NCBI GenBank assembly: GCA_963969495.1
Contig: OZ018329.1
Location: 143,014,021 to 143,078,020 of the forward strand
Direction of reading: 5' to 3'
Source of the DNA: Ceratothoa steindachneri
Taxonomy: Eukaryota > Arthropoda > Malacostraca > Isopoda > Cymothoidae
Length of the DNA: 64,000 nt
The notes under the pieces were generated by a model. The model saw nothing but the letters and a program-made list of their open reading frames with translations. It ran no database searches and was not told the origin of the DNA. The position numbers were made by a program, and so were the translations under genes. Below are positions 26,064-64,000 of the stretch, one piece after another. Positions within the stretch are counted from its first letter, which is position 1, and each line of letters opens with the position of its first letter.

Positions 26064-26066
26064 TAA

Positions 26067-27851: not shown

Positions 27852-28530
27852 TCAGATTTCTTTATTTTTTGTCTGGTTCTGAGTTTTTGGCCCGAGTTTA
27901 CTAACTTGCCTTCGTTTCGGTGGTACTCGTAATAATCTAATCTTTACACGTATCAAGTTGAGCATATTTTTGCCGTTTCTTTTTATTGTTCTACACAGCT
28001 TCTTATTCTGATCAAGAAGGAAAGAGCACAAAGCCAAGAATGTGTACCAATTATATGTATATAAAATACCCCAGATGGGCTTTTAAATTTAAAAGAAAAT
28101 CATTTGAGGAATTAAAAGGACGTGGGAAATAAAAACGTAAAGCTCTCTTACTGATAAATTCTTCCATCTAAGAACTTTGTTCCGACTAGCGATTTGTCTC
28201 CCTGCATATGTCTCATAGGATTTTTTAATTAAGAAAATATTCAAAATACTCATAAGGTTTACTTTCCGAGTTTAGAGCCACGTGCGCTTGGATGCCTGAA
28301 CGGGCATTGTGAAATATGATTACGGGGAAGAAATTGGAGCTGCCATGCCTCGTTTCATCAATTAGATGATTTTCATAAATCATTGACTCTAATTCGTGAT
28401 CGGATGAGTCTGAACTATTATTATCACTATCAGTTATTTCCAAATGAGAATCAAGTTCATAGTAGATATCCGAAGTTTTAGACGAGGTCGAGCTTTTAGC
28501 GTTAATATACTTTTCTTTCGTATTCTTTAG
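27852..28530 (-). pseudogene. piggyBac transposase relic (copy B)
   Basis: Counterpart of 3857-4535. The acidic serine-rich N-terminus (28225-28443) and the downstream basic fragment (27852-28037) are both retained with one or two residue changes. The same frameshift and stops are present, so the gene was already dead before duplication. Confidence 0.6.
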
Positions 28531-29303
28531 TTATTCACCTTGCACACATTGTACTTTTGGATGTGTGGGACTACGACCATAATATACTGAGAGTGAAGCG
28601 TCATAGACCCTAATATACATCTCACCGATAGGTCCTTTAAATGAAGGTTGGATGACTGGTAAAAATGGAAGCAAAACCTTTATAGCTACATTAATACGCA
28701 CATGTAATCCTTTATCCAATCACCAGATATCCTATATACAGTATGTTAAGGTTTGGAAACTACTTTATTGCGGATTATAATTTTAAGATATGGGAATCAA
28801 GGATTAAACTGAGTAATTCCTATTTGTATTTCCTTATTGAAACACTATTTCTGTTTAACAATTCGTTATATAATATTAATGAAATATTCAATATATTGAT
28901 TTTTCATCTTTGCAAAAGTAACACCACCTTGTTTTCTAGGACGCGGTCGCGCTATTAGCGTTAATGTACTTTTCTTTCGTACTCTTTAGTTATTCACCTT
29001 GCACACATTGTACTTTTTGATGTGTGGGTGCATTATATTTGAGCAGATTGTGTAATAATTAAAAAGAAGCAGTGATTTTAGTCCCTGCATTAACACTAGA
29101 TTAATAACTACGATCGAAATTCTATTTGCTAGTAAGATTGAATGGTGACATATAATGAAGGGAAGTGTTATGTGGCCAGCTAATGAATGGAAGAGAGGTA
29201 GGATTAGTTAATGAAAGAAAAAGCTGTGTGACTAAACACCATTCCATCATTTCAGAAGCATTGAATATTAATTCTGGTCTACATGCGTTTCTTAGGCCAA
29301 ATC

Positions 29304-29710
29304 TTATTTGGTTGCTGATGGGTTATCCCGGGGAGTTGTATCAATCCTTATGTTCTTTTCTTTTTTCTCCCACGTAAGTTTTGAACCTTCTGCATACCAC
29401 TTTGTATATTCAACGTACAAATATCTTTCAATGTATGTGTACCCTTTCCTAACTTTTCCATACTGTTCAGAATTCACCGAATCCAAATCGTCTGGCAAAA
29501 TGTACCTTTTCGTCTTTGCATCATTAAAAAAAAGAAAGAAATATTGTGATATTTGAAATCTTTTCGATTTTTAAAAATTCTTTCACTAAAGTCCTTTTCT
29601 ACTATGAACCTATTTACCTTGCCCTGAGAATCACTGATGTAGATGTTTAATCGAGGGGCTCTTGATTCTATGTCCTTTACGGCAGCTGCCATAGGATATA
29701 GCTGATACAC
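29304..29710 (-). pseudogene. Unrecognised coding relic with one frameshift (copy B)
   Basis: Counterpart of 5309-5715. The 78-residue frame (29474-29710) has the same translation as in copy A; the second frame (29304-29498) differs by two residues. Confidence 0.4.
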
Positions 29711-30128
29711 GAGGGTAGGATCTCAGGTAGTCTCTACGTAAAAGAAAACGAATCTTAGATGAGATTAAATGGTGATAAAAGCTGTACCACGTTTTTGATT
29801 AGTAAATACCATTATTCTTTCTGATCTCTCGTTGTCAACATGTCAGGACATTTCAAAATGTAAATATTTAGAGATTAAATAACTTACCTTGATTTATTAC
29901 CTAATGTCCATGGGGCTTGATTCCCATCTAGAAACTGGAGATGCCTCTAATCACGAATATCCGAGAGCCGTGTTTGTTTTTTTGGCATCACTAAGATGAC
30001 ATGAATAACTACTATTAAACTCATGACAATAAAATTTGACTTAGCAGGCAGCATTGGCTGTCGAGAGTGGCAATTATGAATAAATAGTAAGCAATCTAAC
30101 CAGCAACAGCCATACATAGGAGAAATTA

Positions 30129-30424
30129 CTAGTCAAAATCGTACCAAATCTTACCCAGATCTGAGTGAAGATGACGTTTAAAGGTGGTAACAAATTCAGC
30201 GGATACAGCATATTCAGGCATCCCATTCCTAATATCAATGACTCTCACTGAGAAGAAACGTGTTCTAATATCAATGTTATCACGAGAAACGAACAGCTTG
30301 AGAGAATGTCCCCTATTGTCTCTAATTAAATTTCTCACAGGTAGGTGATCGAGGTGAGGGTAAACCCTTTAAAACTTTCTCCCCCTAATCAGGTTAGCTC
30401 TAATCAATCTGCTTTGAATAGAGG
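30129..30424 (-). pseudogene. LINE reverse transcriptase, C-terminal fragment (copy B)
   Basis: Counterpart of 6135-6430 with one residue difference near the C-terminus. All recognised blocks are present. Confidence 0.8.
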
Positions 30425-32360
30425 CTAAGACTCAGTAGTGCTTCATTAGTTTCATACGTATAGTAAATCGTAAATACCAGCTATTTAATGTAGTTTAGCA
30501 CTTGCTTTATCACTCTTCGTTGCATGTTCGTATTCTTCTCACACCTTGAACATTAACTTATCTCTTTGAATTGTTCTGACTATTGTGTTTCTTTTCTTAT
30601 ACTAGTGTGTCACTTTCATAAATTGATGTTCGCTTCAAAACACTCTCATGCCTAGTCAGGTAACCTGGCAAATATTGTTTGTGAATTAGTGGATATAATG
30701 CTGCTATTAATGGTGATCTGATTTGGAATATATCGGAAAAGGGAAGCTCTCAAGGCTATTTTAAAGTGGAATTTTTTTCCTTCGACTGATAACGGAAATA
30801 TTTTATCGAGAGCGAGACAGCCCAAATTTATTCAGCGAAAGCTCTACAGCTCTTCGTTTTCAGATTTTAATGTGATTCTATCCAACCTTTTTCATTTGCA
30901 AATAAACACCAGATATGCAGACTTCCTAAGAGTCAGTTAATTGCGCGATAAATAAATAAAATTTGGCACGAAGTACGAAGCATTCATTGGATGCATCCAG
31001 GCTTCTAAATCACCACAACTAATACATTCGTCGAATATGTGACAACAATATGCTAAGGGGATCCCATGTTTCTTTTGGAAGGAAGAACCATGCTTACACA
31101 CATAAAATCTTCAAACTTCTTCTTCACCTTGCGAGATTGTACGAAGGAAGCTTTCAGCTTAGGAATTGCCCAGGAAAAGCGTGTAAAATAAATTAATACA
31201 TATAGCTTCAATTATAACAAGAATATGTATATTATACATAAAGATAAATTGTACATATAATTTACTTGTGTGGGCAATTATACTCCTTGTTATATTACAG
31301 AGAGAATTTTTTTCTTGGTTCCTTAATTACCGAACATGAGCAGGCAACATAACTGAATACATTAAGGAGTAAAACCTGGACTTAATTTCTCTTGGTTATG
31401 TGGAAAATACTCGTAAAAGGGAAGATTGATATTCAATTTTCCATACATTTAGAGCTGAGTTGGAGTGAGAGATCTCTTCCTCATTTACCCAACAACGCTG
31501 TGATTAAGAGAGATGTGTGGATCTACAGCCTGTGTTATTTAATGTAGAAAACGAGTTGGACTGCAATAAAAAGGACTCTATGTCTAGGAGATTAGGAGAG
31601 CATCTCTTCTAAATTCGCCTCAATCGTGCTCTTATAAATGTGATTAATAGAGGTGTGCTTTCCGAAAGGATGGAAATGTTTACATTCCTGTTTGTTTTTA
31701 AGAGAAGATAGGGCATAATAAGAATATTTCTAACGATAAAGCAGGATACAATAATCAGAATAAAAGTTAACCTCAAAAAACAACATTAGTATTTTGTTAT
31801 TTATTATAGAGTATATAAAAACAGAACTACCCGTTCACCATCTTACCTACTTCATAATTTGTGCAAATTCGAGCCAAATTATATCAATTACATGGTATAC
31901 AACTGCATGTAATTTATGAAGGACATACTACTTATCGGCACTTTTAACGAAGGAGAGAATCAGAATTACTCAGGAGTAAGATCGATGTAGATCTAACAAA
32001 TCACAGATCAAAATTTAAGGAAAAAGAGAGCGAACACCATGAATCTTGACGCGCTAGTTAAAATAAATGCCTCCTAGAGTTTAGTAGCAAAATAGTGAAA
32101 TAAAACTTATGATTAAATCAGGGAATGTAGAATGTAAAAGTACAAAATTAATATATAAGTAACTAATTTACAATATGCAAATTGGAAAAATAAAATAAGG
32201 CAAAAGCATCAAAACATCCATATGTTACTTTAGCTCTAACGAATTTTAGACGAAAAGCGAAAAACAATTCGATCTTGGCTAATAATACTATTTTTTAATG
32301 ATTATGCTGTTCAAGTTCATGAGTCTTCACATTAAACCTGTCCTTTCCCTAAGGTAAACC
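30425..32360. other. No gene in copy B interval
   Basis: Equivalent of 6431-8366 in A. The 77-residue frame of A is interrupted here by a stop. Confidence 0.5.
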
Positions 32361-33505
32361 TTGAGAAACGAGGTTAATTGTATATACAGATATTTCCTGG
32401 TAAATTTACGCCAACAAATTGGGAGAGGAAGATATAATGCAAATCTAATGAAAATCTCTTTTAAAACTCAAAGCGCTAAAAGGGATAAAACAAGAACAAA
32501 TCGGAGACAGCAAATTATAACAATAAAAGATATACTAAAAAGAAGCAGAAAAATGATCATTAAGAGATTTAAGAAATTATATCAGTAATTATGATACTCA
32601 ATAAACCAGGATGTCTGCGACAAGTTATAAGAAAAAACATTAAAAATTTTGAAAGCTTGATATATGATAGATCAAGTAAAAAAGATTTGTTAACAATTGG
32701 GTTTATAAATGCTTGAGAGACTCGTCTTGGTAAACTTATAGGTGTGTTTAGAAAATGGTTCAGTTCAAATTAGAGAAAATCTCAAAGGCATAATTCGATT
32801 TAATTATTTTTTTAAGTAACAAGGAAGACTTTACTAACCATAGATATTTAATATCTTATTAGCAACTGAAAATTTCCTTACATAGGTAGAGATGATAAAG
32901 TCTTTTTATTAGCGACATGAAACATATTTATCTAAATCTAACAGCACTCGTTCCAGGCAAAGCTCGGAGATATCAATATTACTTATAATCAATTGATTGT
33001 TTAAATTTTATTTTAGGATCTACGGAAATATAATTTTTGTCTTAATAAACTTTGATTCGGTTCAAAGAGCCCTACTGAAAGAAGGAACTATATTAAATGC
33101 ACTTCTAAATAACTATAGAGTTATGCATATAGTCATTTATGCTGCACTTTCCCTTGTATCAAATACAAATATAAACGGAGGAAAAAAGCGCATACCATCT
33201 GCTTGAAATTGTTGATAGAAGTCGCTCAGAAGATTTTCAACACCCAGGTTAGCAACAGTCGGGAATTATACTTAATAGGAATGTTAAAGGAACCTTTTTT
33301 TTCTTATGATCCGTAGTTTTTGCCTGAAATCAAAAGAATTAGTACTAATATTATCCCAAACTTATTCTATCCTAACACAAGAAAGTCGCACATCCTGAAA
33401 AGGAAAAGTTTAAAGACTCAAATAATTAGCAACTCTCTTGTTGATCGATCAAATTTGGAAACAAGTACAGCAATAGGTAGAGCTAGGAGAGATTTTATCT
33501 CCTGA
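32361..33505 (+). pseudogene. LINE linker and reverse transcriptase relic (copy B)
   Basis: Counterpart of 8367-9511 with the three frames at 32361-32588, 32997-33206 and 33320-33505. The linker frame has the same translation as in A. The same breaks are shared. Confidence 0.5.
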
Positions 33506-33713
33506 CAAGTTCATTTATAAACTACAATAACAGAACAAATTTGCATGGAGAGAGTGGTAATAGAAGCGATATTCATCTAAGGTAAAAATAAAAAGTATTT
33601 AATCATTGCATCTCACTAGGTTTAACTTAAACGTAGTTAAACTTAATAAAGGAATATTTTAGGAAACTGAGTAATACATGTTAGGAAGATCTTTCCTGAG
33701 TCTGAAAATTTGT

Positions 33714-33717
33714 ATAC

Positions 33718-33781
<64 letters not shown>
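33714..33781. repeat. (TA)n(GA)n compound microsatellite (copy B)
   Basis: Counterpart of 9719-9772 with a shorter TA part and a longer GA part, interrupted once by an AA. Confidence 0.95.
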
Positions 33782-36245
33782 GGGCACAAATTTCTTAAAT
33801 AGAAATAGGAAATACACAATCCTAGAAAAAGGAAAACTGATGGAAAAGAGGGAAAATTATCTTGACGGTATGGTTCATCCACTTGTTAGAGAATACCGAT
33901 TGCGTCTTAACTCGAGATACATTATATGGCCAGAAGATAGCCACTGATGTCGTCTAAGAAAGTCCGATCTACCAAGGTTCACGCAGTTTTCCTGCCCTGC
34001 AGCGGTGCAAATGGCTAGAAGTCAAGAATCTGCCCAAGGTGCTGCAGGATAGAAGCTCGTTACGAAGTAAGATTCGTGGCTTCCATTTAAGTACTCGGCA
34101 CTTGGGTCGGTCTTGCTCTTTCCACACCTAAATTCTAGAGAGTGAATCATCTAGCTAGTACTGCTATCACCAGAAGTTCAAGTGTGAAGTACAACGCATT
34201 GTGGCTTCCGTATGAATAGAAGCAAATAACCTAAGCTCGTGTTTCCTCTAAGGGGGATCTTTAGTCTAATATCCGCTCTTTCTGCTTAAAGCAACCCAAG
34301 AGCCTCCTGGTGAAGCCCGGTCCCTTACGGCAGCTAATAGTCTCACAACTGTGCTTAATCCGGCCAGTTCTGGAATTTTTTCATACCACAACTTTATAAT
34401 TAACCATTCAGCATATGTACAAAAATGGCATCGTCTAGTTTGCAACAAAATTAAGAAAAACGTAACCTTATCTCATCAGAATTGTCAATACTCACTCCTG
34501 AAACACTATCCAGCCCCGTCTGGCCGATATTGCAAACGGAATAAAATAGATGCCATTCAAGCCTATGCCATCACTCGATGTCATATTTTCGACCACACCT
34601 ATTATTTTCTTTTCTTTAACAGCTACAAGGGTTTATATTTCTTCTTTTTTTCCATTTGCCATCTCTCTGTTCGTTCATTCCTAATCTATGAATGCTCTAG
34701 GTTTAGTTTTATAACTAAGGCGATATGATCTAGTAAACCTGCAGCAATAAAATGACCAAAGTATATACCTAGTAACTAAGTGCCTCCATCTGTTAGTCAG
34801 CGAAATCAGATTTGGAGTCCGAAACTTCATTTCCCCTTTGAAACATTAATTTGAGCTCAAATCTCTTAAAATGGACGATTTAGCACCCCTAGCCACTAGG
34901 TGGTGCCATCTGATGGTCAACTGATATCATATTTGAACTCGCTGATCTCAATTATCTTTGGTAGCATTAGTTTTATCTAGCTACATTAAACCGGCAACTC
35001 GTTGAGGAGGTGAAGAACAAAGCAACACGAGATTTGCATGACCTATAGATCTGCTTGCTTTGCCGCAGTTAAAAAGACATAATCGCTAGTCAATCCTCTT
35101 CACTTCTTTAGTGAATCTCTGAACTTCCATAGGTCAATAGGTCCATAGATCCTCGGCCAGGGGAATATGAGCGTCAGAATCTATTATCAGGCAGTTAGTA
35201 CACAAGGACATCTGCTACTACTCACACAATATGCGAAAAGATCAGCTTCTGTTGCAGGGGATGAAGAGCAAACGGTATTATTGTGCTGGATTTCTTGTGA
35301 ACGAACGGAACCATCATCACCAAGCCTGGTATTATTTGGTTCTTTTCAGACGAAAAGAATTTTACCAGGCTCACATGGTTAACTTGCCAAACAAAGGCTG
35401 GATTGCTGTCTCCACCAAAGATGCACCGATAGTTATAATGACCAAGTTCCATATCCATCTAATGGTATCTGGTTTGGCTAATAGGGGGAGTCACGTACTG
35501 CTCACGTTTATTTCCCCTTAGGGCTAATCAGAGGACTGGATTAATTAGTGTCACCCTTGATCTTTAAAGATGAATTTGGGAGGCACTACCTTTGGCAGCC
35601 TGTCTTTGAAATATGCGACACAAGAAGGAGAACGCAGTCTTGGCTGTCAGACAATTATTTGCCAACATGATTCAGAAACTCTAACAATTTAACTCCCAAG
35701 ACTACAACCACCAGCACTTTTATGTGCGAGGCGTGTTTTATAGAGAGAGAGACAGAATAAAAGTCCGCTTGAAACAACAAGGTCGAGCTTAGGACCATGA
35801 TCAATGTAGACTAATTACAACATAAAGCCTCCCGGAGGGCCAAGCTGACATATACATTAAAGTCCCCCGCCCCATTTGAAAGGAAGAAAAAGAATCGAGC
35901 CTACATGAGGAGAGTCGTGGGAATGTTAGCTGTCGAATAACAGTCTAACTGCATACCAGGTTTGATCTCCCCACCACCTAGGTAGTCGGAGCGAGCCGCG
36001 GTTGCTAAACTGACCACCAAAGCCCCTTAAATGGCGCTCAAAAGATCCAATTACCTACGAGATCAGTAGGTCCGTGGCTAAATCTCCAAAAAGCAGTGCC
36101 AGTCAAAGGGCACTCCAAGGATGGTAACGGTTGGTCGTGTCTCTAATTAACAAGCCGACTTCGCCATCACGGTGCTAACGTCCTCCCCCTCACTCTCCCA
36201 GATGCAGCTTCGTCCCTTCCCCCTTAGATGGGGCGGGCGCCAGTC

Positions 36246-36253
36246 TATAAATA
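36246..36253 (+). promoter_or_regulatory. TATA box before tandem repeats (copy B)
   Basis: Counterpart of 12234-12241, identical box. Here the first downstream repeat carries the TCAGT initiator (36282-36286). Confidence 0.5.
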
Positions 36254-36272
36254 AGCCCCTAAAGGAAAGAGA

Positions 36273-36492
36273 GAAGATAATTCAGTGAGAGACGATAGAG
36301 GACCAGTTCGACAAGATCGGTCCTTCGCCCACTTTCGATATAACTAGAAGATTATTCAGTGAGAGACGATAGAGGAACAGTTCGAGAAGATCGGTCCTTC
36401 GCCCACTTTCTATATAACTAGAAGATTATTCGAGGAGAGACGATAAAGGATCAGTTCGAGAATATCGATCCTTCAACCAGCGTCGAATTAAC
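36273..36492 (+). repeat. 74-bp tandem repeat, three units (copy B)
   Basis: Counterpart of 12261-12480 with the same number of units and few substitutions. Confidence 0.9.
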
Positions 36493-37302
36493 TTAAAACG
36501 TCACGTTTGGTATCGGTACCAGACTGAACCATCCGGTACAGACTTAGAAGTCTGACTGGATTACCATTTCTAGTGCCAAACCAGGAAATTCGGCAGCAAG
36601 AGAAGTAGGATTATTTCGGTGCCAGCTCGCAGCATCCTGCAAAGGTTTATTAAGAAGCTTAGCAGGACGAATATTCCTAGTGCCAAACACGAATTTCGCA
36701 GGTAAGAAAATCGAAGAACCAGTCAATCTCGAGTGACTCTCAGATTGCGATCTTAAAACTGGAGAATTAGAAATTAGATTCCTTTACCTCCATCCTTTCT
36801 CGAAGAAAATCTACCATCGGCCACTCCAACTCTCCGAAGCGCGAGAAAAGCCCTCCAGTGACATCCGGCAACCCCTGATCCTATCTGTCCTCTAAGTTAG
36901 AATGACCAATTATATTCGTATTGCATTAGTATGAGTTTATTACGGTACTCAATTTAAATGAAGTAGAAACAATTGAGCGTGAACCCCGCCATATATACTC
37001 GTAGAAGAGTGTAATTTAATTTGATGTTTAACGCAAAGTTAAAAGGGTCAGGCTAAAATAACTAATCGGCAATTGGTCGTTTACGTGGAGCCTATTTTTT
37101 TATTTTTGTAATGAATAGATATTGTAATAGGCCCAGTTGCAAGCTTGTTTAGCCTCGCTTAACTTATGAGGTGAATATAAACATTTTTACTGTTTTTTTT
37201 GTAGTTAATTGTTAAATTTAAAATCTATGTTCATTTTAGGATAATTCCTGGGCGTTTCACTAAATCCTTACGTGTTTGAGACGGCTCTTCCTAAAACAAC
37301 AA

Positions 37303-37541
37303 AATAGCATTCTTCGACAATCGACACAGTTTGCAGATCATAAAGAGAACCTGAAACAGGTTTCGACGCCACCCAGAGGCCGTGGTTGGGGCCAACTCCG
37401 ATTTTGATTCATCGGAAAACTATAATTCTTCAAGTGTGTAGTATCTATGGTGAGGTTTAGTGAGTGGGTAATCCCAGTCCCACTTCCTAGGCATATATTA
37501 TAATCCCACACCAAGGTGGAGTGGAAGTAAAGTGTAGCCAA
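37303..37541 (-). repeat. 239-bp segment absent from copy A (copy B)
   Basis: Present in B and C, absent from A. The A junction shows a CAA microhomology, fitting deletion from A by end-joining, though an insertion with a very short target duplication is possible. A minus-strand frame of 67 residues (37338-37541) is open through most of it and kept in C. No similarity to a known SINE or protein was recognised. Confidence 0.75.
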
Positions 37542-40040
37542 TACACCTACTGTAGCCCCTTCTTGTGAAAAAGAATAACTACGGTGCGTCCCTTTTGATC
37601 AAAATTAAGAATGATCCTCTGAGTGTGTCCTCACTCAGTAAAAGCCAGTCATGGGTGGACTTGTGTAATATTGAGATTTAAGTCGAGTGTATTGCTTATT
37701 AATTCCCAAAGGATCATCTAAAATAGTTAAACACACAGTTACAAAAATAATCTTTAATATACATTAATTAGAAATATGAAACAGCGTATATAGGTATAAA
37801 ATAGGATTAATCTTTGCACTGAATAAGTAAATCTATATAATGTCGTGGGGATTACACTTGAATTCTACGAACTAGGATGCTTGCTTCTTAATTCCCATCG
37901 ACAGAATGAATTGAATAATATTCTGAAATTAGGCACTATTCAGGAAAAATAGAACTTCTAATTGTATTATCAACCCTTTTTCCTTTACTATATTACTAAG
38001 TTAAAAAAATGATCTTGTACCTAAGTGGGTCGGATGAGTGAATGTTATATCTCTCCCTTTTATAATTATGTTTCTCTTAGTCATTTTTATTCCTCTTGGC
38101 CTTTCTCAATATCGAAAACGATTCTTGCCAATTTTTATTCAAGATTACCTTTGAGAAGTGAAAATTAATGACTTTTGGTTCTAGTTCAATGTAAGAATTC
38201 AATACCGAATTTGTTATGCATAAAAGTAAACAAGGTAGTTATGATGGAAAATATATCTTACTTAAGTAGCAAACAAATGAATTTAGACGTATATTAAAGT
38301 AAACACCATGGTAAGTACATATTCTAGCAACCTCTAAAAATTTAATAGGATTAAGCAAATGTTTTGATTAACATAATGAAGATGTGCTAAAGATATTATT
38401 TTAAAAGTAGACATCTAAATCAGCATTATAACCTATTCAGTTCGTTTTTATAAACAACGCAAATTACCTCTAGAAATGTATTTCATGCCATGTTTCTATT
38501 CCATGAGAGAGTAATTCATCAGGTCAAAATAATTCATGAGATTTAAGAAGGCGCAGGTCAAAAGAAATGCTGCGCTATAAGAAAATATATGTGTTCCTGA
38601 CGTGAAGCTTTATTCTTTATTCCACTAGGGAAGTTAAGGTAAGCCAACTCTTTACACATATTCACTTTTTTAACATACTACTAACGATGAAATATTATCC
38701 CAATTCCGTCACAAATAAAGACAACATAAGCTTCTAAACCAAAATGAGCACAAACATGGAACACGGAAGTAAATACACACTATCAGAGGGTTCACTCTTC
38801 GATATGGTTGTGCCCTCTCTTCAGCATTCTTGTGATTTTCAGGGGGGTTTTTTGCATATAAGACACTATGGGTAGTTTGTCCTCTTTCATTGCCCTATTT
38901 TGAAAGGAATTTAACTGTTTGAATAAAATTTAAGAATATATTTTACGACTGATTTTCTTCGGCTATTAGTAGTTTTATATTTCACCATTTTTTAGGACTA
39001 CTAATATTGCAATGCAAGTAAAAACCTCGTCGGTTTTTGGACGTCAATATAAAGGTCTAAAATCATTGCTAACTTGTGACGCTCATTTGCAATCCTATCT
39101 ATATCTTCACGGTACAATCATAAATCCACAATCTTCTTCGTTCACTAAGTAAGTATATACTCTCCACTTTTATTCTCACACCTACTGCACCATGGGATGT
39201 AGTGGTGACTGTATCATGGTCAATCATAACGTTACACGTTATCTTGGTCTTAAGTAACCGCGGTCTACTGCCAATCTAGTGATTATTCCATGGCCCTACG
39301 AAATATTCACTTTTAATTCAAACCTATTAACTGCTTTTCATTTACTTCACTCACCACAACGAGCTGAGTAATTTTAATGGAACAGTGATATTTGCTCCAT
39401 TAAGCTATTTAGCATCTTATGTATACCCTTACAATGAAAAAAGGGCAGTATTTAACTAATTAAGAGATTTAATGCTTCATGATCATGAGTTTCAGATAAA
39501 AAAGAAATCGAAAAGGGAATTTAATCTCCCAAGATAAATCTTCATCAACTATAGTTAAAGACGAGAATCTTCTCTTTACTGAGCAGGACTAAGACTCCGA
39601 TCAGCTAGTAGTAGATCAAGGGCTGTACCATAATTATATATGCAAATTACATTTTTGCGAGATATATTATAAACTCTTTGGCAATTTGTCATGAAAATCG
39701 ATATGCGAAAAGTAATTTTACATAGAAAGGATCTTTTTTTAAATTGAAGCTATACCAGAGGAAAATCTAATATGCCACCATTTCCCACTGTACAGTATAT
39801 GCAAATTATAAGCAAAAATAGTGTACACAATAATCAGTGAATGAAGTTTATGAATACACATTTGAATTTAAAGGGTGAGCTTAATAGGTGACGTATCTGA
39901 AATAAATTGGTATGCTGAAAATTAACTCATTTATATTTGATGTCAGAAATTCAATTATCAGAAAGGATTCGATTTTCAGTATATATTCGACCATGGAGTA
40001 AATATTTATTTGGAACATAATCCAGAATTGGGTATTTTGT

Positions 40041-40301
40041 TCAACTCGGAGTGGAAGGCACCCTAACACCAATGTGGCTTCTATTTCCCAGGTCATCTTT
40101 ATTTGAATGCTCCAAAGTAACATTTGTAAAGATGAATTGATCGTTCTCCCGAATGAAATTTAATTTCCTTCGATAGGACAAACCCTTTCTTTTACCATGC
40201 CTATAGTGTTTATGTAGGAATTGTATAATAGGAACCTCATTAATTTCGACCATTTTAACACTGAAGTTGCTAACTATCTCATCTCCAACACCAGCCACCA
40301 A
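40041..40301 (-). pseudogene. Unrecognised coding relic, most complete copy (copy B)
   Basis: Counterpart of 15783-16075, open for 86 residues starting VAGVGDEIVSNF. Two of the three copies are broken, so it is treated as a relic. Confidence 0.35.
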
Positions 40302-41173
40302 CTTTTCCTTGTTCTAGTGTTTTGACAACAACCACTCTTCCTCCAGTGAACCATTTAGGGCAGCTTTAGACTACTCTGTCAATTTAAAAAATTCAGACTA
40401 CAAATATTTTTAGTAATATTCTTACAACGATTTCTAATTAATCTTCTTCTTGACAGGCGAAGAACTAGTGTATTACCTCATTTTTATGGACATTGACGTT
40501 GACCTATTATTTAAATATTGAACATGCCTGGATGACGAACAGCGTTGATAATTGTCTTAGACATGGATTTGTAAGCTAGTTCAAAGATTCATGTGTGATG
40601 AAAACTATGTTAAGACAAGAAACTCGGAATTCTTAGGTGATTTTACCTTGTTTTTCGTTCTAATAAGTAAAAAAAATTAGAAAAAGAAAATTTCCCTACC
40701 ATGGTATAATAATATTTTTAACTTTTTATTAAGTTCCATCGGAATTATAGCTAAAAATAATTAAAACCTGATTGTAGGAAAACGTATAAAGGCTGTTCTT
40801 CCGATGAATATTATTTCGCATAGCTCCAAATATTTGCTCATTCTGGCAGATAAGTCACTAACTCAAATGCTAATGCTTACATAGGGGCATTAACTAAAAC
40901 CCCCTATATATATATATCTAACCTATTTAATCAAGCTATTAGAATTTATCATATTATTCATAAATTTATACGATACAAAATGTATATTTTGCTTAAATAT
41001 TCGATTATTTCACTAATATATTTGAATTGCTTATTATTTTACTAATTGGTGTTATCAATAGGATATTAGATTTTTTCAAATGAGAAATTAACCAATATTT
41101 CCTAAGTTTAGGTTAAATTTATAATTAATGTGTACTCAATAACGTTCGAAGTAATTAATAAAACTAAAACTAA

Positions 41174-41200
41174 AGAACTTACAGATCATCTGTAAGTTCT
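41174..41200. repeat. 27-bp perfect palindrome (copy B)
   Basis: Same palindrome as 16945-16971, unchanged. Confidence 0.9.
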
Positions 41201-48158: not shown

Positions 48159-48444
48159 TCTAAACAAACCGTAAAATCACTTTCTTCCTGGTCAGAAACT
48201 AAAACTGAAAATCGCAAATCTCTCCATCAACTATTACTAGGAAACTCAGACTTGGATGTCTCGGGTGAGCTGCCAGGGAACCAGAATGGAACAGTTGACC
48301 TCAGCTCTTGATTGCCTGCCTGGCAGGACTCATTCAAGAGGCCAGATCAGCCACGGTCGAAGGTTCGCTGTCATTCTTGCGGTCAATTCCAAGTTTGCAC
48401 AGGGTAACTGGGGCCCATAACTACCGACTCAACGCCTCCACGTC
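48159..48444 (-). repeat. Arm extension shared only by B and C (C copy)
   Basis: Reverse-complement counterpart of 43953-44238, the same length. It marks the inner end of the right palindrome arm. Copy A has unrelated sequence at the equivalent place. Confidence 0.85.
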
Positions 48445-51199: not shown

Positions 51200-51226
51200 A
51201 GAACTTACAGATGATCTGTAAGTTCT
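51200..51226. repeat. 27-bp perfect palindrome (copy C)
   Basis: Same palindrome as 16945-16971, unchanged apart from the central base being read on the other strand. Confidence 0.9.
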
Positions 51227-54200
51227 TTAGTTTTAGTTTTATTAATTACTTCGAACGTTATTGAGTACACATTAATTATAAATTTAACCTAAACTTAAGA
51301 AATATTGGTTAATTTCTCATTTGATAAAATCTAATATCCTATTGATAACACCAATTAGTAAAATAATCGAATATTTAAGAAAAATATACATTTTGTATCG
51401 TATAAATTTATGAATAGTATGATAAATTCTAATAGCTTAATTAAATAGGTTAGATATATATATATATATATATATATATGGGGTTTTAGTTAATGCCCCT
51501 ATGTAAGCATAAGCATTTAAGTTAGTGACTTATCTGCCAGAATGAGCAAATATTTGGAGCTATGCGAAATAATGTTTATCGAAAGAACAGCCTATATACG
51601 TTTTCTTAAAATCAGGTTTTAATTATTTTTAGCTATAATTCTAATGGAACTTAATAAAATGTTAAAAATGTATAGATATTGTAAAAATATTATTATACCA
51701 TGGTAGGGAAATTTTCTTTTTCGAATTATTTTTACTTATTAGAACGAAAGACAAGGTAAAATCACCTAAGAGTTCCGAGTTTCTAGTCTAAACATAGTTT
51801 TCATCACAAATGAATCTTTGAACTGGCTTACAAATCAGTGGGTAAGAAAATTATCAACGCTGTTCGTCATCCAGGCATGTTCAATATTTGAATAATAGGT
51901 CAACGTCAATGTCCATAAAAATGAGGTAATACACTAGTTCTTCGCCTGTCAAGAAGAAGATAATTAGAAATCGTTGTAAGAATATTACTAAAAATATTTT
52001 TAGTCTGAATTTTTTTAATTGACAGAGTAGTCTAAAGCCGCCCTGAATGGTTCACTGGAGGAAGAGTGGTTGTTGTCAAAACACTAGAATAAGGAGAAGT
52101 TGGTGGCTGGTGTTGGAGATGAGATAATTAGCAACTTGAGTGTTAAAATGATCGAAATTAATGAGGTTCCTATTATAGAATTCCTACATATACACTATAT
52201 GTCATGGTAAGAGAAAGAGTTTGTCCTATCGAAGGAAATTGAATTTCATTTTGGGAGAACGATCAATTCATCCTTACAAATGTTACTTTGGAGCATTCAA
52301 ATAAAGATGACCTGGGAAATAGAAGCCACATTGGTGTTAGGGTGCCTTCCACTCCGAGTTGAACAAAATACAAAATTCTGGATTATGTTCCAAATAAATG
52401 TTTACTTCATGGTCGAATATATACTGAAAATCGAATCCTTTCTGATAATTGAATTTCTGACATCAAATATAAATGAGTTAATTTTCAGCATACCAATTCA
52501 TTTCAGATACGTCACCTATTAAGCTCACCATTTAAATTTAAATGTGTATTCATAAACTTCATTCACTGATTATTGTGTACACTATTTTTGCTTATAATTT
52601 GCATATAAAGTGGGAAATGGTGGCATATTAGATTTTCCTCTGGTATAGCTTCAATTTTTAAAAAGATCCTTTCTATGTAAAATTACTTTTCGCATATCGA
52701 TTTTCATGACAAATTGCCAAAGAGTTTATAATATATCTCGCAAAAATGTAATTTGTATATAATTATGGTACAGCCCTTGATCTACTACTAGCTGATCGGA
52801 GTCTTAGTCCTGCTCAGTGAAGAGAAGATTCTCGTCTTTAACTATAGTTGATGAAGATTTATCTTGGGAGATTAAATTCCCTTTTCGATTTCTTTTTCAT
52901 CTGAAACTCATGATCATGAAGCATTTATTCTCTCAATTAGTTAAATACTGCCCTTTTTTCATTGTAAGGATATACATAAGATGCTAAATAGCTTAATGGA
53001 GCAAATATCACTGTTCCATTAAAATTACTCAGCTCGTTGTGGTGAGTGAAGTAAATGAAAAGCAGTTAATAGGTTTGAATTAAAAGTGAATATTTCGTAC
53101 CGCCATGGAATAATCACTAGATTGGCAGTAGACCGCGGTTACTTAAGACCGAGATAACGAGTAACGTTATGATTGACCATGATACAGTCACCACTACATC
53201 CCATGGTGCAGTAGGTGTGAGAATAAAAGTGGAGAGTATATACTTACTTAGTGAACGAAGAAGATTTTGGATTTATGATTGTACCGTGAAGATATAGATA
53301 GGATTGCAAATGAGCGTCACAAGTTAGCAATGATTTTAGACCTTTATATTGACGTCCGAAAACCGACGAGGTTTTTACTTGCATTGCAATATTCGTAGTC
53401 CTAAAAAATGGTGAAAAATAAAACTACTAATAGCCGAAGAAAATCAGTCGTAAAATATATTCTTAAATTTTATTCAAACAGTTAAATTCCTTTCAAAATA
53501 GGGCAATGAAAGAGGACAAACTACCCATAGTGTCTTATCTGCAAAAAAACCCCCTGAAAATCACAAGAATGCTGAAGAGAGGGCACAACCATATCGAAGA
53601 GTGAACCCTCTGATAGTGTGTATTTACTTCCGTGTTCCATGTTTGTGCTCATTTTGGTTTAGAAGCTTATGTTGTCTTTATTTGTGACGGAATTGGGATA
53701 ATATTTCATTGTTAGTAGTATGTTAAAAAAGTAAATATGTGTGAAGAGTTGGCTTACCTTAACTTTCCTAGTTGAATAAAAAATAAAGCTTCACGTCAGG
53801 AACACAGATATTTTCTTATAGCGCAGCATTTCTTTTGACCTGCGCCTTCTTAAATCTCATGAATTATTTTGACCTGATGAATTACTCGCTCATGGAATAG
53901 AAACATGGCATGAAATACATTTCTAGAGGTAATTTGCGTTGTTTCTATAAACGAACTGAATAGGTTATAATGCTGATTTAGATGTCTACTTTTAAAATAT
54001 AATCTTTAGCACATCTTCATTATGTTAATCAAAACATTTGCTTAATCCTATTAAATTTTTAGAGGTTGCTAGAATATGTACTTACCATGGTGTTTACTTT
54101 AATATACGTCTAAATTCATTTGTTTGCTACTTAAGTAAGATATATTTTCCATCATAACTAACTTGTTTACTTTTATGCATAACAAATTCGGTATTGAAAT

Positions 54201-54854
54201 CTTACATTGAACTAGAACCAAAAGTCATTAATTTTCACTTCTCAAAGGTAATCTTGAATAAAAATTGGCAAGAATCGTTTTCGATATTGAGAAAGGCCAA
54301 GAGGAATAAAAATGACTAAGAGAAACATAATTATAAAAGGGAGAGATATAACATTCACTCATCCGACCCACTTAGGTACAAGATCATTTTTTTAACTTAG
54401 TAATATAGTAAAGGAAAAAGGGTTGATAATACAATTAAAAGTTCTATTTTTCCTGAATAGTGCTTAATTTCAGAATATTATTCAATTCATTCTGTCGAAG
54501 GGAATTAAGAAGCAAGCATCCTAGTACGTAGAATTCAAGTGTAATCCCCACCACATTATATAGATTTACTTATTCAGTGCAAAGATTAATCCTATTTTAT
54601 ACCTATATACGCTGTTTCATATTTCTAATTAATGTATATTAAAGATTATTTTTGTAACTGTGTGTTTAACTATTTTAGACGATCCTTTGGGAATTAATAA
54701 GCAATACACTCGACTTAAATCTCAATATTACACAAGTCCACCCATGACTGGCTTTTACTGAGTGAGGACACACTCAGGGGATCATTCTTAATTTTGATCA
54801 AAAGGGACGCACCGTAGTTATTCTTTTTCACCAGAAGGGGCTACAGTAGGTGTA

Positions 54855-55093
54855 TTGGCTACACTTTACTTCCACTCCACCTTGGTGCGGGATTATAATA
54901 TATGCCTAGGAAGTGGGACTGGGATTACCCACTCACTAAACCTCACCATAGATACTACACACTTGAAGAATTATAGTTTTCCGATGAATCAAAATCGGAG
55001 TCGGCCCCAACCACGGCCTCTGGGTGGCGTCGAAACCTGTTTCAGGTTCTCTTGATGATCTGCAAACTGTGTCGATTGTCGAAGAATGCTATT
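54855..55093 (+). repeat. 239-bp segment absent from copy A (copy C)
   Basis: Inverted counterpart of 37303-37541, also 239 bp. The reading frame (54855-55055) is kept with three residue changes and one residue shorter at the end. Confidence 0.75.
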
Positions 55094-55902
55094 TTGTTGT
55101 TTTAGGAAGAGCCATCTGAAACACGTAAGGATTTAGTGAAACGCCCCGGAATTATCCTAAAATAAACATATATTTTAAATTTAACAATTAACTACAAAAA
55201 AACAGTAAAAATATTTATATTCACCTCATAAGTTAACCGAGGCTAAACAAGCTTGCAACTGGGCCTATTACAATATCTATTCATTACAAAAATAAAAAAT
55301 AGGCTCCACGTAAACCAACCATTTGCCGATTAGTTATTTTAGCGTGACCATTTCAAATTTGCGTTAAACATCAAATTAAATTACACTCTTCTACGAGTAT
55401 ATATGGCGGGGTTCACGCTCAATTGTTCCTACTTCATTTAAATTGAGTACCGTAATAAACTTATACTAATGCAATACGAATATAATTGGTAAATCTAACT
55501 TAGAGGACAGATAGGATCAGACGTTGCCGGATGTCACTGGAGGGCTTTTCTCGCGCTTCGGAGAGTTGGAGTGGCCGATGGTAGATTTTCTTCGAGAAGG
55601 GATGGAGGTAAAGAAATCTAATTTCTAATTCTTCGGTCTTAAGATGGAAATCTGATAGTCACTCGAGAGTGACTGGTTCTTCGATTATCTTACTTGCGAA
55701 ATTCATGTTTGGCACTAAGGAATATTGGTCCTGCTAAGCTTCTTACTAAACCTTTGCAGGATGCTGCGGGCTAACACCGAAATAATCCTTCTTCTCTTGC
55801 TGCCGAATTTCCTGGTTTGGCACTAGAAATGGTAATCCAGTCAGACTTCTAAGTCTGTACCGGATGGTTCAGTCTGGTACCGATACCAAACGTGACGTTT
55901 TA

Positions 55903-56123
55903 AGTTAATTCGACGCTGGTTGAAGGATCGATATTCTCGAACTGATCCTTTATCGTCTCTCCTCGAATAATCTTCTAGTTATATAGAAAGTGGGCGAAGG
56001 ACCGATCTTCTCGAACTGTTCCTCTATCGTCTCTCACTGAATAATCTTCTAGTTATATCGAAAGTGGGCGAAGGACCGATCTTGTCGAACTGGTCCTCTA
56101 TCGTCTCTCACCGAATTATCTTC
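55903..56123 (-). repeat. 74-bp tandem repeat, three units (copy C)
   Basis: Inverted counterpart of 12261-12480; again three units. Unit number has not changed since duplication, although the nearby microsatellite has. Confidence 0.9.
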
Positions 56124-56142
56124 TCTCTTTCCTTTAGGGGCT

Positions 56143-56150
56143 TATTTATA
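56143..56150 (-). promoter_or_regulatory. TATA box before tandem repeats (copy C)
   Basis: Inverted counterpart of 12234-12241, identical box, reading toward lower coordinates. Confidence 0.5.
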
Positions 56151-58610
56151 GACTGGCGCCCGCCCCATCTAAGGGGGAAGGGACGAAGCTGCATCTGGGA
56201 GAGCGAGGGGGAGGACGTTAGCACCGTGATGGCGAAGTCGGCTTGTTAATTAGAGACACGACCAACCTTACCATCCTTGGAGTGCCCTTTGACTGGCACT
56301 GCTTTTTGGAGATTTAGCCACGGACCTACTGATCTCGTAGGTAATTTGATCTTTTGAGCGCCATTTAAGGGGCTTTGGTGGTCAGTTTAGCAACCGCGGC
56401 TCGCTCCGACTACCTAGGCGGTGGGGAGATCAAACCTGGTAGGCAGTTAGACTGTTATTCGACAGATAATATTCCCACGACTCTCCTCATGTAGGCTCGA
56501 TACTTTTGCTTCCTCTGCAATTGGGCGGGGGACTTTAATGTATATGTCAGCTTAGCCCTCCGGGAGGCTTTATGTTGTAATTAGTCTACATCGATCATGG
56601 TCCTAAGCTTGAACTTGTTGTTTCAAGCGGACTTTTATTCTGTCTCTCTCTCTATAAAACACGCCTCGCACATAAAAGTGCTGCTGGTTGTAGTCTTGAG
56701 AGTTAGATTGTTAGATGTTCTGAATCATGTTGGCAAATAAATTGTCTGACAGCCAAGACTGCGTTCTCCTTCTTGTGTCGCATATTTCAAAGACAGGCTG
56801 CCACAGGTAGGGCGTCCCAAATTCAACCTTAAAGATCAAGGGTGACACTAATTCATCCAGTCCTCTGATTAGCCCTAAAGGGAAATAAACGTTAGCAGTA
56901 TGTGACTCTCCGTATTAGCCAAACCAGAAACCATTAGATGGATATGAAAGTTAGTCATCATAACTATCGGTGCATCTTTGGTAGAGACAGCAATCCAGCC
57001 TTTGTTTGGCAAGTTAACCATGTGAGCCTGGTGAAATTCTTCTCGTCTGAAACGAACCAAATAATACCAGATTTGGTGGTGATGGTTCCGTTCGTTCACA
57101 AGAAATCCAGCACACTAATTCCGTTTGCTCTTCATCCCCTGCAACAGAAGCTGGTCTTTTTGCATATTGTGTGAGTAGTAGCAGATGTCCTTGTGTACTA
57201 ACTGCCTGATAATAGATTCTGACGCTCATATTCCCCTGGCCAAGGATATATGGACATATTGACCTATGGAAGTTCAGAGATTCACTAAATAAGTAAAGAT
57301 GATTGACTAGCGATTACGTCTTTTTAACTGCGGCAAAGCAAGCAGATCTATAGGTCATGCAAATCTCGTGTTGCTTTGTTCTTCACCTCCTCAACGAGTT
57401 GCCGGTTTAATGTAGCCAGATAAAACTAATGCTACCAAAGGTAATTGAGGTCAGTGAGTTCAAATATGAGATCAGTTGACCATCGATGGCACCACCTAGT
57501 GGCTTGGAGTGCTAAATCGTCCATTTTAAGAGATTTGAGCTCAAATTAATGTTACAAGGGGTAAATGAAGGTTCGGACTCCAAATCTGATTTCGCTCACT
57601 AACAGATGGAGGCACTTAGTTACTAGGTATATACTTTGGTCATTTTATTGCTGCAGGTTTACTAGATCATATCGCCTTAGTTATAAAACTAAACCTAGAG
57701 CATTCATAGATTAGGAATGAACGAAAAGAGAGATAGCAAATAGAAAAAAAGAAGAAATATAAACACTTGTAGCTGTTAAAGAAAAGAAAATAATAGGTGT
57801 GGTCGAAAATATGACATCAAGCGATGGCATAGGCTTGAATGGCATCTATTTTATTCCATTTGCAATATTGGCCAGATGGGGCTGGATAGTGTTTCAGGAG
57901 TGAGTATTGACAATTCTGATGAGATAAGGTTACGTTTTTCTTAATTTTGTTGCAAACTAGACGATGCCATTTTTGTACATATGCTGAATGGTTAATTATA
58001 AAGTTGTGGTATGAAAAAATTCCAGAACTGGCCGGATTAGGCACAGTTGTGAGACTATTAGCTGCCGTAAGGGACCGGGCTTCACCAGGAGGCTCTTGAG
58101 TTGCTTTAAGCAGAAAGAGCGGATATTAGACTAAAGATCCCCCTTAGAGGAAACACGAACTTAGGTTATTTGCTTCTATTCATACGGAAGCGACAATGCG
58201 TTGTACTTCACACTTGAACTTCTGGTGATAGCAGTACCAGCTAGATGATTTACTCTCTAGAATTTCGGTGTGGGAAGAGCAAGACCGATCAAGTGCCGAG
58301 TAATTAAATGGAAGCCAGGAATCTTACTTCGTAACGAGCTTCTATCCTGCAGCACCTTGGGCAGATTCTTGACTTCTAGCCATTTGCACCGCTGCAGGGC
58401 AGGAAAACTGCGTGAACCTTGGTAGATCGGACTCTCTTAGACGACATCAGTGGCTATCTCCTGGCCATATAATGTATCTCGAGTTAAGACGCAATCGGTA
58501 GTCTCTAACAAGTGGATGAACCATACCGTCAAGATAATTTTCCCTCTCTTCCATTAGTTTTCCTTTTTCTAGGATTGTGTATTTCCTATTTCTATTTAAG
58601 AAATTTGGGC

Positions 58611-58653
<43 letters not shown>
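58611..58653. repeat. (CT)n(AT)n compound microsatellite (copy C)
   Basis: Inverted counterpart of 9719-9772, the shortest of the three. Confidence 0.95.
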
Positions 58654-58860
58654 CAAATTTTCAGACTCAGGAAAGATCTTCCTAACATGTATTACTCAGT
58701 TTCCTAAAATATTCCTTTATTAAGTTTGACTACGTTTAAGTTAAACCTAGTGAGGTGCAATGATTAAATACTTTTTATTTTTACCATAGATGAATATCGC
58801 TTCTAATACCACTCTCTCCATGCAAATTTGTTCTATCATCGTAGTTTATAAATGAACTCG

Positions 58861-59995
58861 TCAGGAGATAAAATCTCTCCTAGCTCTACCTATTGCTGTA
58901 CTTGTTTCCAAATTTGATCGATCAACAAGAGAGTTGCTAATTATTTGAGTCTTTAAACTTTTCCTTTTCAGGATGTGCGACTTTCTTGTGTTAGGATAGA
59001 ATAAGTTTGGGATAATATTAGTACTAATTCTTTTGATTTCAGGCAAAAACTACGGATTATAAGAAAAAAAAGGTGCCTTTAACATTCCCATTAAGTTTTA
59101 TTCCCGACTGTTGCTAACCTGGGTGTTGAAAATCTTCTGAGCGACTTCTATCAACAATTTCAAGCAGATGGTATGCGCTTTTTTCCTCCGTTAATATTTG
59201 TATTTGATACAAGGGAAAGTGCAGCATAAATGACTATATGCATAACTCTATAGTTATGTAGAAGTGTATTTAATATAGTTCCTTCTTTCAGTAGGGCTCT
59301 TTGAACCGAATCAAAGTTTATTAAGACAAAAATTATATTTCCGTAGATCCTAAAATAATATTTAAACAATCAATTGATTATAAGTAATATTGATATCTCC
59401 GAGCTTTGCCTGGAACGAGTGCTGTTAGATTTAGATAAATATGTTTCATGTCGCTAATAAAAAGACTTTATCATCTCTACCTATGTAAGGAAATTTTCAG
59501 TTGCTAATAATATATTAAATATCTATGGTTAGTAAAGTCTTCCTTGTTACTTAAAAAAATAATTAAGACGTGTCTTTCAAGCATTTATAAACCCAATTGT
59601 TACCAAATCTTTTTTACTTGATCTATCATATATCAAGCTTTCAAAATCTTTAATGTCTTTTCTTATAACTTGCTACAGACATCCTGGTTCATTGAGTATC
59701 ATAATTACTGATATAATTCTTTAAATCTCTTAATGATCATTTCTCTGCTTCTTTTTAGTATATTTTTTATTGTTATAATTTGCTGTCTCCGATTTGTTAT
59801 TGTTTTTTCCCTTTTAGCGCTTTGAGCTTTAAAAGAGATTTTCATTAGATTTGCATTATATCTTCCTCTCCCAATTTGTTGGCGTAAATTTACCAGGAAA
59901 TATCTGTATATACAATTAACCTCGTTTCTCAAGGTTTCCCTTAGGGAAAGGACAGGTTTAATGTGAAGACTCATGAACGTGAACAGCATAATCAT
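58861..59995 (-). pseudogene. LINE linker and reverse transcriptase relic (copy C)
   Basis: Inverted counterpart with frames at 59705-59995, 59160-59369 and 58861-59046. The linker frame is open further upstream here (96 residues), showing that the coding sequence once extended beyond the start visible in A and B. Confidence 0.5.
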
Positions 59996-61879
59996 TAAAA
60001 AATATTATTATTAGCCAAGATCGAATTGTTTTTCGCTTTTCGTCTAAAATTTGTTAGAGCTAAAGTAACATATGGATGTTTTGATGCTTTTGCCGTATTT
60101 TATTTTTCAAAATTTGCATATTGTAAATTAGTTACTTATATATTAATTTTGTAGTTTTACATTCTACATTCCCTGATTTAATCATAAGTTTCATTTCACT
60201 ATTTTGCTACTAAACTCTAGGAGGCATTTATTTTAACTAGCGCGTCAAGATTCATGGTGTTCGCTCTCTTTTTCCTTAAATTTTGATCTGTCATTTGTTA
60301 GATCTACATCGATCTTACTCCTGAGTAATTCTGATTCTCTCCTTCGTTAAAAGTGCCGATAAGTAGTATGTCCTTCATAAATTACATGCAGTTGTATACC
60401 ATGTAATTGATATAATTTGGCTCGAATTTGCACAAATTATGACGTAGGTAAGATGGTGAACGGGTAGTTCTGTTTTTATATACTCTATAATAAATAACAA
60501 AATACTAATGTTGTTTTTTGAGGTTAACTTTTATTCTGATTATTGTATCCTGCTTCATCGTTAGAAATATTCTTATTATGCCCTATCTTCTCTTAAAAAC
60601 AAACAGGAATGTAAACATTTCCATCCTTTCGGAAAGCACACCTCTATTAATCACATTTATAAGAGCACGATTGAGGCGAATTTAAAAGAGATGCTCTCTT
60701 AATCTCCTAGACATAGAGTCCTTTTTATTGCAGTCCAACTCTTTTTCTACATTAAATAACACAGGCTGTAGATCCACACATCTCTCTTAATCACAGCGTT
60801 GTTGGGTAAATGAGGAAGAGATCTCTCACTCCAACTCAGCTCTAAATGTATGGAAAATTGAATATCAATCTTCCCTTTTACGAGTATTTTCGACATAACC
60901 AAGAGAAATTAAGTCCAGTTTTTACTCCTTAATGTATTCAGTTATGTTGCCTGCTCATGTTCGGTAATTAAGGAACCAAGAAAGAAATTCTCTCTGTAAT
61001 ATAACAAGGAATATAATTGCCCACACAATTAAATTATATGTACAATTTATCTTTATGTATAATATACATATTCTTGTTATAATTGAAGCTATATGTATTA
61101 ATTTATTTTACACGCTTTTCCTGGGCAATTCCTAAGCTGAAAGCTTCCTTCGTACAATCTCGCAAGGTGAAGAAGAAGTTTGAAGACTTTATGTGTGTAA
61201 GCATGGTTCTTCCTTCCAAAAGAAACTTTGGATCCCCTTAGCATATTGTTGTCACATATTCGACGAATGTATTGTTTGTAGTGATTTAGAAGCCTGGATG
61301 CATCCAATGAATGCTTCGTACTTCGTGCCAAATTTTATTTATTTATCGCGCAATTAACTGACTCTTAGGAAGTCTGCATATCTGGTGTTTATTTACAAAT
61401 GAAAAAGGTTGGATAGAATCACATTAAAATCTGAAAACGGAGAGCTGTAGAGCTTTCGCTGAATAAATTTCGGCTGTCTCGCTCTCGATAAAATATTTCC
61501 GTTATCAGTTGGAGGAAAAAAAAATTCCACTTTAAAATAGCCTTGAGAGCTTCCCTTTCCCGATATATTCCAAATCAGATCACCATTAATAGCAGCATTA
61601 TATCCACTAATTCACAAACAATATTTGCCAGGTTACCTGACTAGGCATGAGAGTGTTTTGAAGCGAACATCAATTTATGAAAGTGACACACTAGTATAAG
61701 AAAAGAAACACAATAGTCAGAACAGTTCAAAGAGATAAGTTAATGTTCAAGGTGTGAGAAGAATACGAACATGCAGCGAGGAGTGATAAAGCAAGTGATA
61801 AACTACATTAAATAGCTGGTATTTACGATTTACTATACGTATGAAACTAATGAAACACTACTGAGTCTTAGCCTCTATT

Positions 61880-62170
61880 ATAAGCAGATTGATTAGAGCT
61901 AACCTGATTAAGGTGTTTCAAAGTTTTGGAAGGTTTTACCCTCACCTCGATCACCTATCTGTGAGAAATTGAATTAGGGACAATAGGGGACATTCTCTCA
62001 AGCTTTTCGTTTCTCGTGATAACATTGATATTAGAACACGTTTCTTCTCAGTGAGAGTCATTGATATTAGGAATGGGATGCCTGAATATGCTGTATCCGC
62101 TGAATTTGTTACCACCTTTAAACGTCATCTTCACTCAGATTTGGTTCAGATTTTGTGCGATTTTGACTAG
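61880..62170 (+). pseudogene. LINE reverse transcriptase, C-terminal fragment (copy C)
   Basis: Inverted counterpart. A stop codon just before the RGHSLKLF block shortens the open frame, but the RVIDIRNGMP and FKRHLHSDL blocks are unchanged and the frame ends at the same stop (62168-62170). Confidence 0.75.
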
Positions 62171-62588
62171 TAATTTCTCCTAAGTATGGCTGTTGCTGGT
62201 TAGATTGCTTACTATTTATTCATAATTGCCACTCTCGACCGCCAATGCTGCCTGCTAAGTCAAATTTTATTGTCATGAGTTTAATAGTAGTTCTTTATGT
62301 CATCTTAGTGATGCCAAAAAAACAAACACGGCTCTCGGATAGTCGTGATTAGAGGCATCTCCAGTTTCTAGATGGGAATCAAGCCCCATGGACATTAGGT
62401 AATAAATCAAGGTAAGTTATTTAATCTCTAAGTATTTACATTTTGAAATGTCGTGACATGTTGACAACGAGAGATCAGAAAGAATAATGGTATTTACTAA
62501 TCAAAAACGTGGTAGAGCTTTTATCACCATTTAATCTCATCTAAGATTCGTTTTCTTTTACGTAGAGACTACCTGAGATCCTACCCTC

Positions 62589-62994
62589 GTGTATCAGCTA
62601 TATCCTATGGCAGCTGCCGTGAAGGACATAGAATCGAGAGCCCTTCGGTCAAACATCTACATCAGTGATTCTCAGGGCAAGGTAAATAGGTTCATAGTAG
62701 AAAAGGACGTTAGTGAAGAATTTTTAAAAATCGAAAAGATTTCAAATATCACAATATTTCTTTCTTTTTTTTAATGATGCAAAGACGAAAAGGTACATTT
62801 TGCCAGACGCTTTGGATTCGGTGAATTCTGAACAATATGCAAATGTTAGGAAAGGGTACACATACATTGAAAGATATTTGTACGTTGAATATACAAAGTG
62901 GTATGCAGAAGGTTCAAAACTTACGTGAGAAAAAAAAGAAAAGAACATAAGGATTGATACAACTCCCCGGGATAACCCATCAGCAACCAAATAA
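62589..62994 (+). pseudogene. Unrecognised coding relic with one frameshift (copy C)
   Basis: Inverted counterpart of 5309-5715. The first frame is shortened to 61 residues (62589-62774) and the second runs to a stop at 62992-62994. A further small indel changes the frame near the middle. Confidence 0.4.
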
Positions 62995-63589
62995 GATTGG
63001 GCCTAAGAAACGCATGTAGACCAGAATTAATATTCAACGTTTCTGAAATGATGGACTGGTGTTTAGTCACACAGCTTTTTCTTTCATTAGCTAATCCTAC
63101 CTCTCTTCCATTCATTAGCTGGCCACATAACACTTCCTTTCATTATATGTCACCATTCAATCTTACTAGCAATTAGAATTTCGATCGTAGTTATTAATCT
63201 AGTGTTAATGCAGGGACTAAAATCACTGCTTCTTTTTAATTATTACACAATCTGCTCAAATATAATGCACCCACACATCAAAAAGTACAATGTGTGCAAG
63301 GTGAATAACTAAAGAGTACGAAAGAAAAGTACATTAACGCTAATAGCGCGACCGCGTCCTAGAAAACAAGGTGGTGTTACTTTTGCAAAGATGAAAAATC
63401 AATATATTGAATATTTCATTAATATTATATAACGAATTGTTAAACAGAAATAGTGTTTCAATAAGGAAATACAAATAGGAATTACTCAGTTTAATCCTTG
63501 ATTCCCATATCTTAAAATTATAATCCGCAATGAAGTAGTTTCAAACCTTAACATAGTGTATATAGGATATCTGGTGATTGGATAAATGA
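62995..63589. other. No gene in copy C interval
   Basis: Equivalent of about 4706-5308 in A. It includes the inverted form of the direct repeat described at 4957-5034. Confidence 0.5.
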
Positions 63590-63766
63590 TTACATGTGCG
63601 TATTAATGTAGCTACAAAGGTTTTGCCTCCATTTTTACCAGTCATCCAACCTTCATTTAAAAGACCTATCGTTGAGATGTATATTAGGGTCTATGACGCT
63701 TCATTCTCAGTATATTATGGTCGTAGTCCCACACATCCAAAAGTACAATGTGTGCAAGGTGAATAA

Positions 63767-64000
63767 CTAAAGAGTACGAAAGAAAAGTATATTAACGCTA
63801 ATAGCTCGACCTCGTCTAAAACTTCGGATATCTACTATGAACTTGATTCTGATTTGGAAATAACTGATAGTGATAATAATAGTTCAGACTCATCCGATGA
63901 CGAATTAGAGTCACTGATTTATGAAAATCATCAAATTGATGAAACGAGGCATGGCAGCTCCAATTTCTTCCCCGTAATCATATTTCACAATGCCCGTTCA
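63767..64000 (+). pseudogene. piggyBac transposase relic (copy C, cut by window)
   Basis: Inverted counterpart of the relics at 3857-4535 and 27852-28530. Only the N-terminal acidic serine-rich part and the following FFPVIIFHNARS stretch lie inside the window. Confidence 0.55.

Follow-up and report, generated by a model that had tools for sequence, protein, structure and literature searches.

Two long inverted arms around a spacer, in a window of 64,000 bases (the whole stretch of DNA analysed), raise the question of what kind of locus this is. An earlier note placed it beside the palindromes of sex, B and germline-restricted chromosomes; the alternatives range from an ordinary cluster of duplications to copies joined by the assembler or scattered by a mobile element. 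The copies are referred to as A (direct), B (left arm) and C (right arm); their positions and those of associated features are given in Table 1.

Table 1. Copies, connecting stretches, length differences and one degenerate reading frame in the window
Feature	Positions	Strand	Remarks
Copy A, direct to B	1..19737	+	From self-comparison and three-way alignment; cut by the left window edge
A-B link stretch	19738..25178		Single in the window (self-comparison)
Copy B, left arm	25179..44238	+	Extent covered by matches to A or C, those to C beginning at 28297
Spacer	44239..48158		3,920 bases; single in the window, no second copy (self-comparison)
Copy C, right arm, inverted	48159..64000	-	Cut by the right window edge at 64000
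End block of B	43960..44238	+	279 bases; common to C (2 differences), missing from A
239-base block	37301..37539	+	In B and C (3 differences), not in A; CAA at both edges
Block of about 71-73 bases	32729..32799	+	Present in B and A, missing from C
Block of about 1.18 kb	1553..2730	+	In A, not in B; insertion and deletion not separable since C ends short
Degenerate frame	6138..6374	-	79 codons, stop-free; one 74% identical relative, P0001

Inverted copies and their spacer

In a self-comparison of the window, 28297-32728 pairs with 64000-59565 (97.3% BLAST identity) and 32800-44238 with 59566-48159 (96.2%), both in inverted orientation and with gaps counted. With gaps ignored, the three-way alignment has 420 differences between B and C in 15,787 aligned bases (2.66%), i.e. 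the arms are about 97.3% identical, and chance as the source of the match is out of the question. The earlier note had described 28297-44238 and 48159-64000 as reverse complements along all of their visible extent, with a spacer of about 3.9 kb between them; both statements hold, and the measured spacer is single within the window. Homology ends sharply at 44238 and sets in again, equally sharply, at 48159, and the visible length of C is a minimum only, the arm being cut at 64000. Segmental duplications are defined by a length of at least 1 kb and an identity of at least 90%, and the copies of this locus lie within both limits.

A fold-back read chimera would show near-perfect arms without a unique spacer. 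The inverted pair is unlike such a long-read product, with a difference of 2.66% between B and C, 3,920 unique bases between them and no N in the window, and it is very unlikely that the whole arrangement, including the inverted copy, is a misassembly of copies located elsewhere. The worry that B and C are joined haplotypes is weak, as the pair is inverted and its spacer unique.

A third, direct copy

The palindrome view of the locus is incomplete: the inverted pair represents two of three moderately diverged copies, and all three are observed directly, as are their ends within the window and their identities. In the 15,268 columns common to all three, the pairwise difference amounts to 1.44% (A-B), 2.72% (B-C) and 2.82% (A-C); the closest relative of B is the direct copy A, rather than the opposite arm C. 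Private differences number 117 in A, 101 in B and 312 in C, with 2 columns in which all three differ, and these counts identify A-B as the youngest pair, with similar rates on A and B. When columns within 15 of a gap are dropped, the remaining 14,165 columns contain 99 (A), 97 (B) and 273 (C) private differences, besides 2 in which all differ. Outside the reach of C, 54 of 3,118 bases differ between A and B, as do 275 of 18,501 over all aligned bases up to position 19726 of A. Their homology extends to the first base of the window (25179 in B) and presumably continues leftward.

Homogenisation from arm to arm is ruled out as the main force, since A and B are closer to each other than B and C. 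That B and C are the arms of an ampliconic palindrome, kept alike by conversion on a sex, B or germline-restricted chromosome, is a reading we regard as quite improbable. The inverted arms and the unique spacer agree with it, as do the willow W arms, which have a similar size and include a pair of 96 to 99% identity (PMC7023750), but the arms here share just 97.3% identity (2.66% difference over 15,787 bases) and lie below the near-identity of >99%, a direct copy is nearer to B than the opposite arm, no gene was seen, and nothing points to sex linkage. Identity alone does not decide against a sex chromosome, since the willow W account itself includes that single pair of only 96 to 99% (PMC7023750). 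Of the earlier interpretation, the geometry is upheld (two long inverted arms, a unique spacer, no visible gene); the suggested kind of chromosome (sex, B or germline-restricted) is not, given arms of 97.3% identity and an A that is nearer to B.

For the direct pair, a real rival of low but appreciable probability takes A and B as two haplotypes of one locus joined by the assembler (a false heterotype duplication), with B-C as a true inverted duplication. The two copies are direct, adjacent and 1.44% different, a value plausible between alleles of a variable invertebrate, and a haplotype switch at 19737/19738 would look just like a tandem duplication in its geometry. False duplications are described as stemming mainly from heterotype duplications, with gaps between the copies as one mark of those on one scaffold (PMC9516828). 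The present pair resembles the cases of that account in orientation, adjacency and a difference plausible for alleles, but differs from them in that no gap exists at the A-B junction (0 N in 64,000 bases) and that the inverted C is not readily explained.

Proposed order of duplications

The locus is most likely an ordinary duplication cluster, or in some part an artefact of assembly, instead of a sex-chromosome palindrome of a special kind. On the pattern of the aligned copies, we consider it fairly probable that it represents three locally clustered segmental duplications, inverted then tandem and with occasional conversion, in the genome of a eukaryote that is probably an invertebrate. We infer the following order of events. 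An older inverted duplication would have given rise to B and C around the unique spacer. A tandem duplication would have followed within the left arm and produced A, its junction lying at roughly 19737/19738. The patchiness of the differences on C would probably go back to gene conversion that now and then linked this copy with the lineage of A and B. Such a tandem event would entail that A ends at the junction while B retains the old flank, i.e. the 279 bases common to C; it also predicts that 19738-25178, the putative left part of the unit of B, has a counterpart beyond the left edge of the window. The copies, without visible gene and presumably without function, would have diverged much like neutral DNA. 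We consider it very improbable that the window belongs to a more extensive array, free of genes and composed of direct and inverted 20-25 kb units, on a non-recombining or supernumerary chromosome with patchy ectopic conversion of non-coding DNA.

Patchy differences on the right arm

Differences private to C are overdispersed, with a variance/mean ratio of 3.53 per 500 columns (3.10 after the gap filter), as high in none of 2000 random placements in either case. The ratios of A and B per 500 columns are 0.87 and 0.83 unfiltered (1293 and 1427 of 2000 placements as high) and 1.34 and 1.13 gap-filtered (218 and 529 of 2000). Per 250 columns, B is slightly clustered without the filter (62 of 2000 placements as high), and slight clustering appears in both A and B with it (140 and 108 of 2000, respectively). 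Adjacent variable sites agree in type 271 times, against a shuffle mean of 228 (0 of 5000 shuffles as high). A two-state model of the C-private differences, with rates of 0.52% and 3.79% and a mean tract of about 160 columns, gains 35.5 log units over a single rate.

The counts on C show no significant correlation with those on A plus B (r 0.08, 0.26 and 0.35; p 0.52, 0.17 and 0.20 for 250, 500 and 1000 columns), so that local mutation rate or constraint is a poor account of the C patches, although the correlations, positive though non-significant, leave some room for rate variation. The patches would most likely stem from conversion acting here and there between C and the lineage of A and B; clustered mutation on C and recombination among ancestral alleles are less likely. 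The longest difference-free runs are 432 (B-C, p 0.001) and 467 (A-C, p 0.0005) under uniform rates, p values that probably lose force given the two rates of C, by estimate. The 500 columns adjacent to the spacer contain only 3 B-C differences, as conversion would allow, but low tracts are present throughout the arm. The patchiness of C and these 3 differences both speak for the ampliconic palindrome.

Length differences and copy ends

Indel runs between positions 4302 and 19725 of A, the two large ones counted, have C as the odd copy in 24 instances, B in 12 and A in 6. The 239-base block is read as a deletion in A with 3 bases of microhomology, which is simpler than an insertion and compatible with the tree; as an insertion, its presence in B and C and not in A would contradict the tree. 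An insertion moved between the arms by conversion is disfavoured by the CAA at both edges and by the ends, which display no inverted repeat by eye. The gap of C at 32729-32799 looks like a deletion with 2 bases of microhomology (TT) and is likewise compatible with the tree.

The copy ends bear on a very improbable reading, three insertions (A, B and C) of one very large non-coding mobile element. Both orientations occur and B and C share one end exactly, as such an element would have it, but A ends 279 bases earlier, the frames scanned contain no convincing transposase domain, and the outer ends and any target duplications lie outside the view.

Gene content

No intact gene is visible in the arms, in agreement with the earlier note, and the stop-free frames are within chance, a result that genes with short exons could escape. 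The longest stop-free frame has 152 codons in both A and B, a length attained in 8 of 100 order-2 Markov simulations for either copy; the corresponding values are 103 codons in C (81 of 100), 126 in the link (13 of 100) and 92 in the spacer (67 of 100). Searches of the window yielded no tRNA and no Rfam family at the gathering score. Of 143 stop-free frames with 50 codons or more in A, link and spacer, 136 were scanned, and none contained a convincing Pfam domain, a result that short exons may escape. Fourteen families matched these 136 frames at E up to 0.1, each in one frame; the best, YmgM (5.9e-4), and the others are taken as chance over 136 scans. Of ten selected frames searched against Pfam at E up to 10, two gave matches, all under curated cut-offs.

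The degenerate frame on the minus strand has P0001, from a 525-base public contig, as its sole relative in the protein collection (1 of 1 candidates). The frame presumably resembles the end of a LINE protein, although none of the searches bears this out: its best Pfam match is DnaG_helical (E 0.095, below cut-off), and PDB yields one weak match, a DNA primase (E 0.78). Phage records yielded nothing for this frame, and the pattern matches in viral (7) and prokaryote contigs (61) did not lead to a confirmed match. P0001 itself has one Pfam match, RRP12_HEAT (E 0.0032, below cut-off). Two further minus-strand frames, 4233-4535 and 4097-4276, presumably resemble the beginning of a piggyBac transposase, an unsupported lead; neither matches a Pfam family, and 4233-4535 has no PDB match and no homologue.

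Comparison with known systems

Among known systems, intrachromosomal segmental duplications share with this locus multi-kilobase local copies of >95% identity, both orientations and indels, and differ in nothing essential, although no gene was found in the unit here. Human Y palindromes have arms of >99.9% identity (PMC3723533), which carry gene families (PMC7023750). The present arms resemble them in being inverted around a unique spacer, with some conversion possible, but differ in their 97.3% identity, the absence of a visible gene and the closer, direct third copy.

On the willow W, four palindrome arms are described as >99% alike on average, with five shared genes and in a female-specific region; the arms measure about 20 kb and the spacer 3,586 bases in Table 2 of that paper, 2.6 kb in its text (PMC7023750). 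Arm length, a spacer of a few kb, more than two copies and the less similar pair are points of likeness to the present locus; the genes in the willow arms, against none seen here, and the four arms >99% alike are points of difference. Palindromes occur elsewhere in the genome as well, according to the same source (PMC7023750).

The locus illustrates a caution: a pairwise view yields a striking palindrome, whereas the three-way comparison reveals a direct copy as the nearer relative. If the arrangement is true, it would offer a small case, in which no gene is visible, for measuring ectopic conversion tracts under little coding selection.

Repeats and base composition

The window has a G+C content of 35% and a CpG observed/expected ratio of 0.78. 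Such a ratio at this G+C content is unlike vertebrate genomes and suggests that the host is an invertebrate, which disfavours a bird germline-restricted chromosome.

A repeat of about 140 bases is present twice per unit (748-887 and 4561-4699, 79% identity), and one of about 95 bases occurs at 4481-4574 and 4938-5033 (91% alike); both are also found in B and C where these copies extend over them, and are probably old interspersed repeats. A 74-base tandem repeat of 2.7 copies has equal length in all three copies (12260-12462, 36272-36474 and 55922-56124). The left side of the spacer (44001-46000) is purine-rich on the plus strand (GC skew 0.18, AT skew 0.08), and the A-B link stretch contains degenerate short repeats of the CTAGGCTAGG type at 19937-20041.
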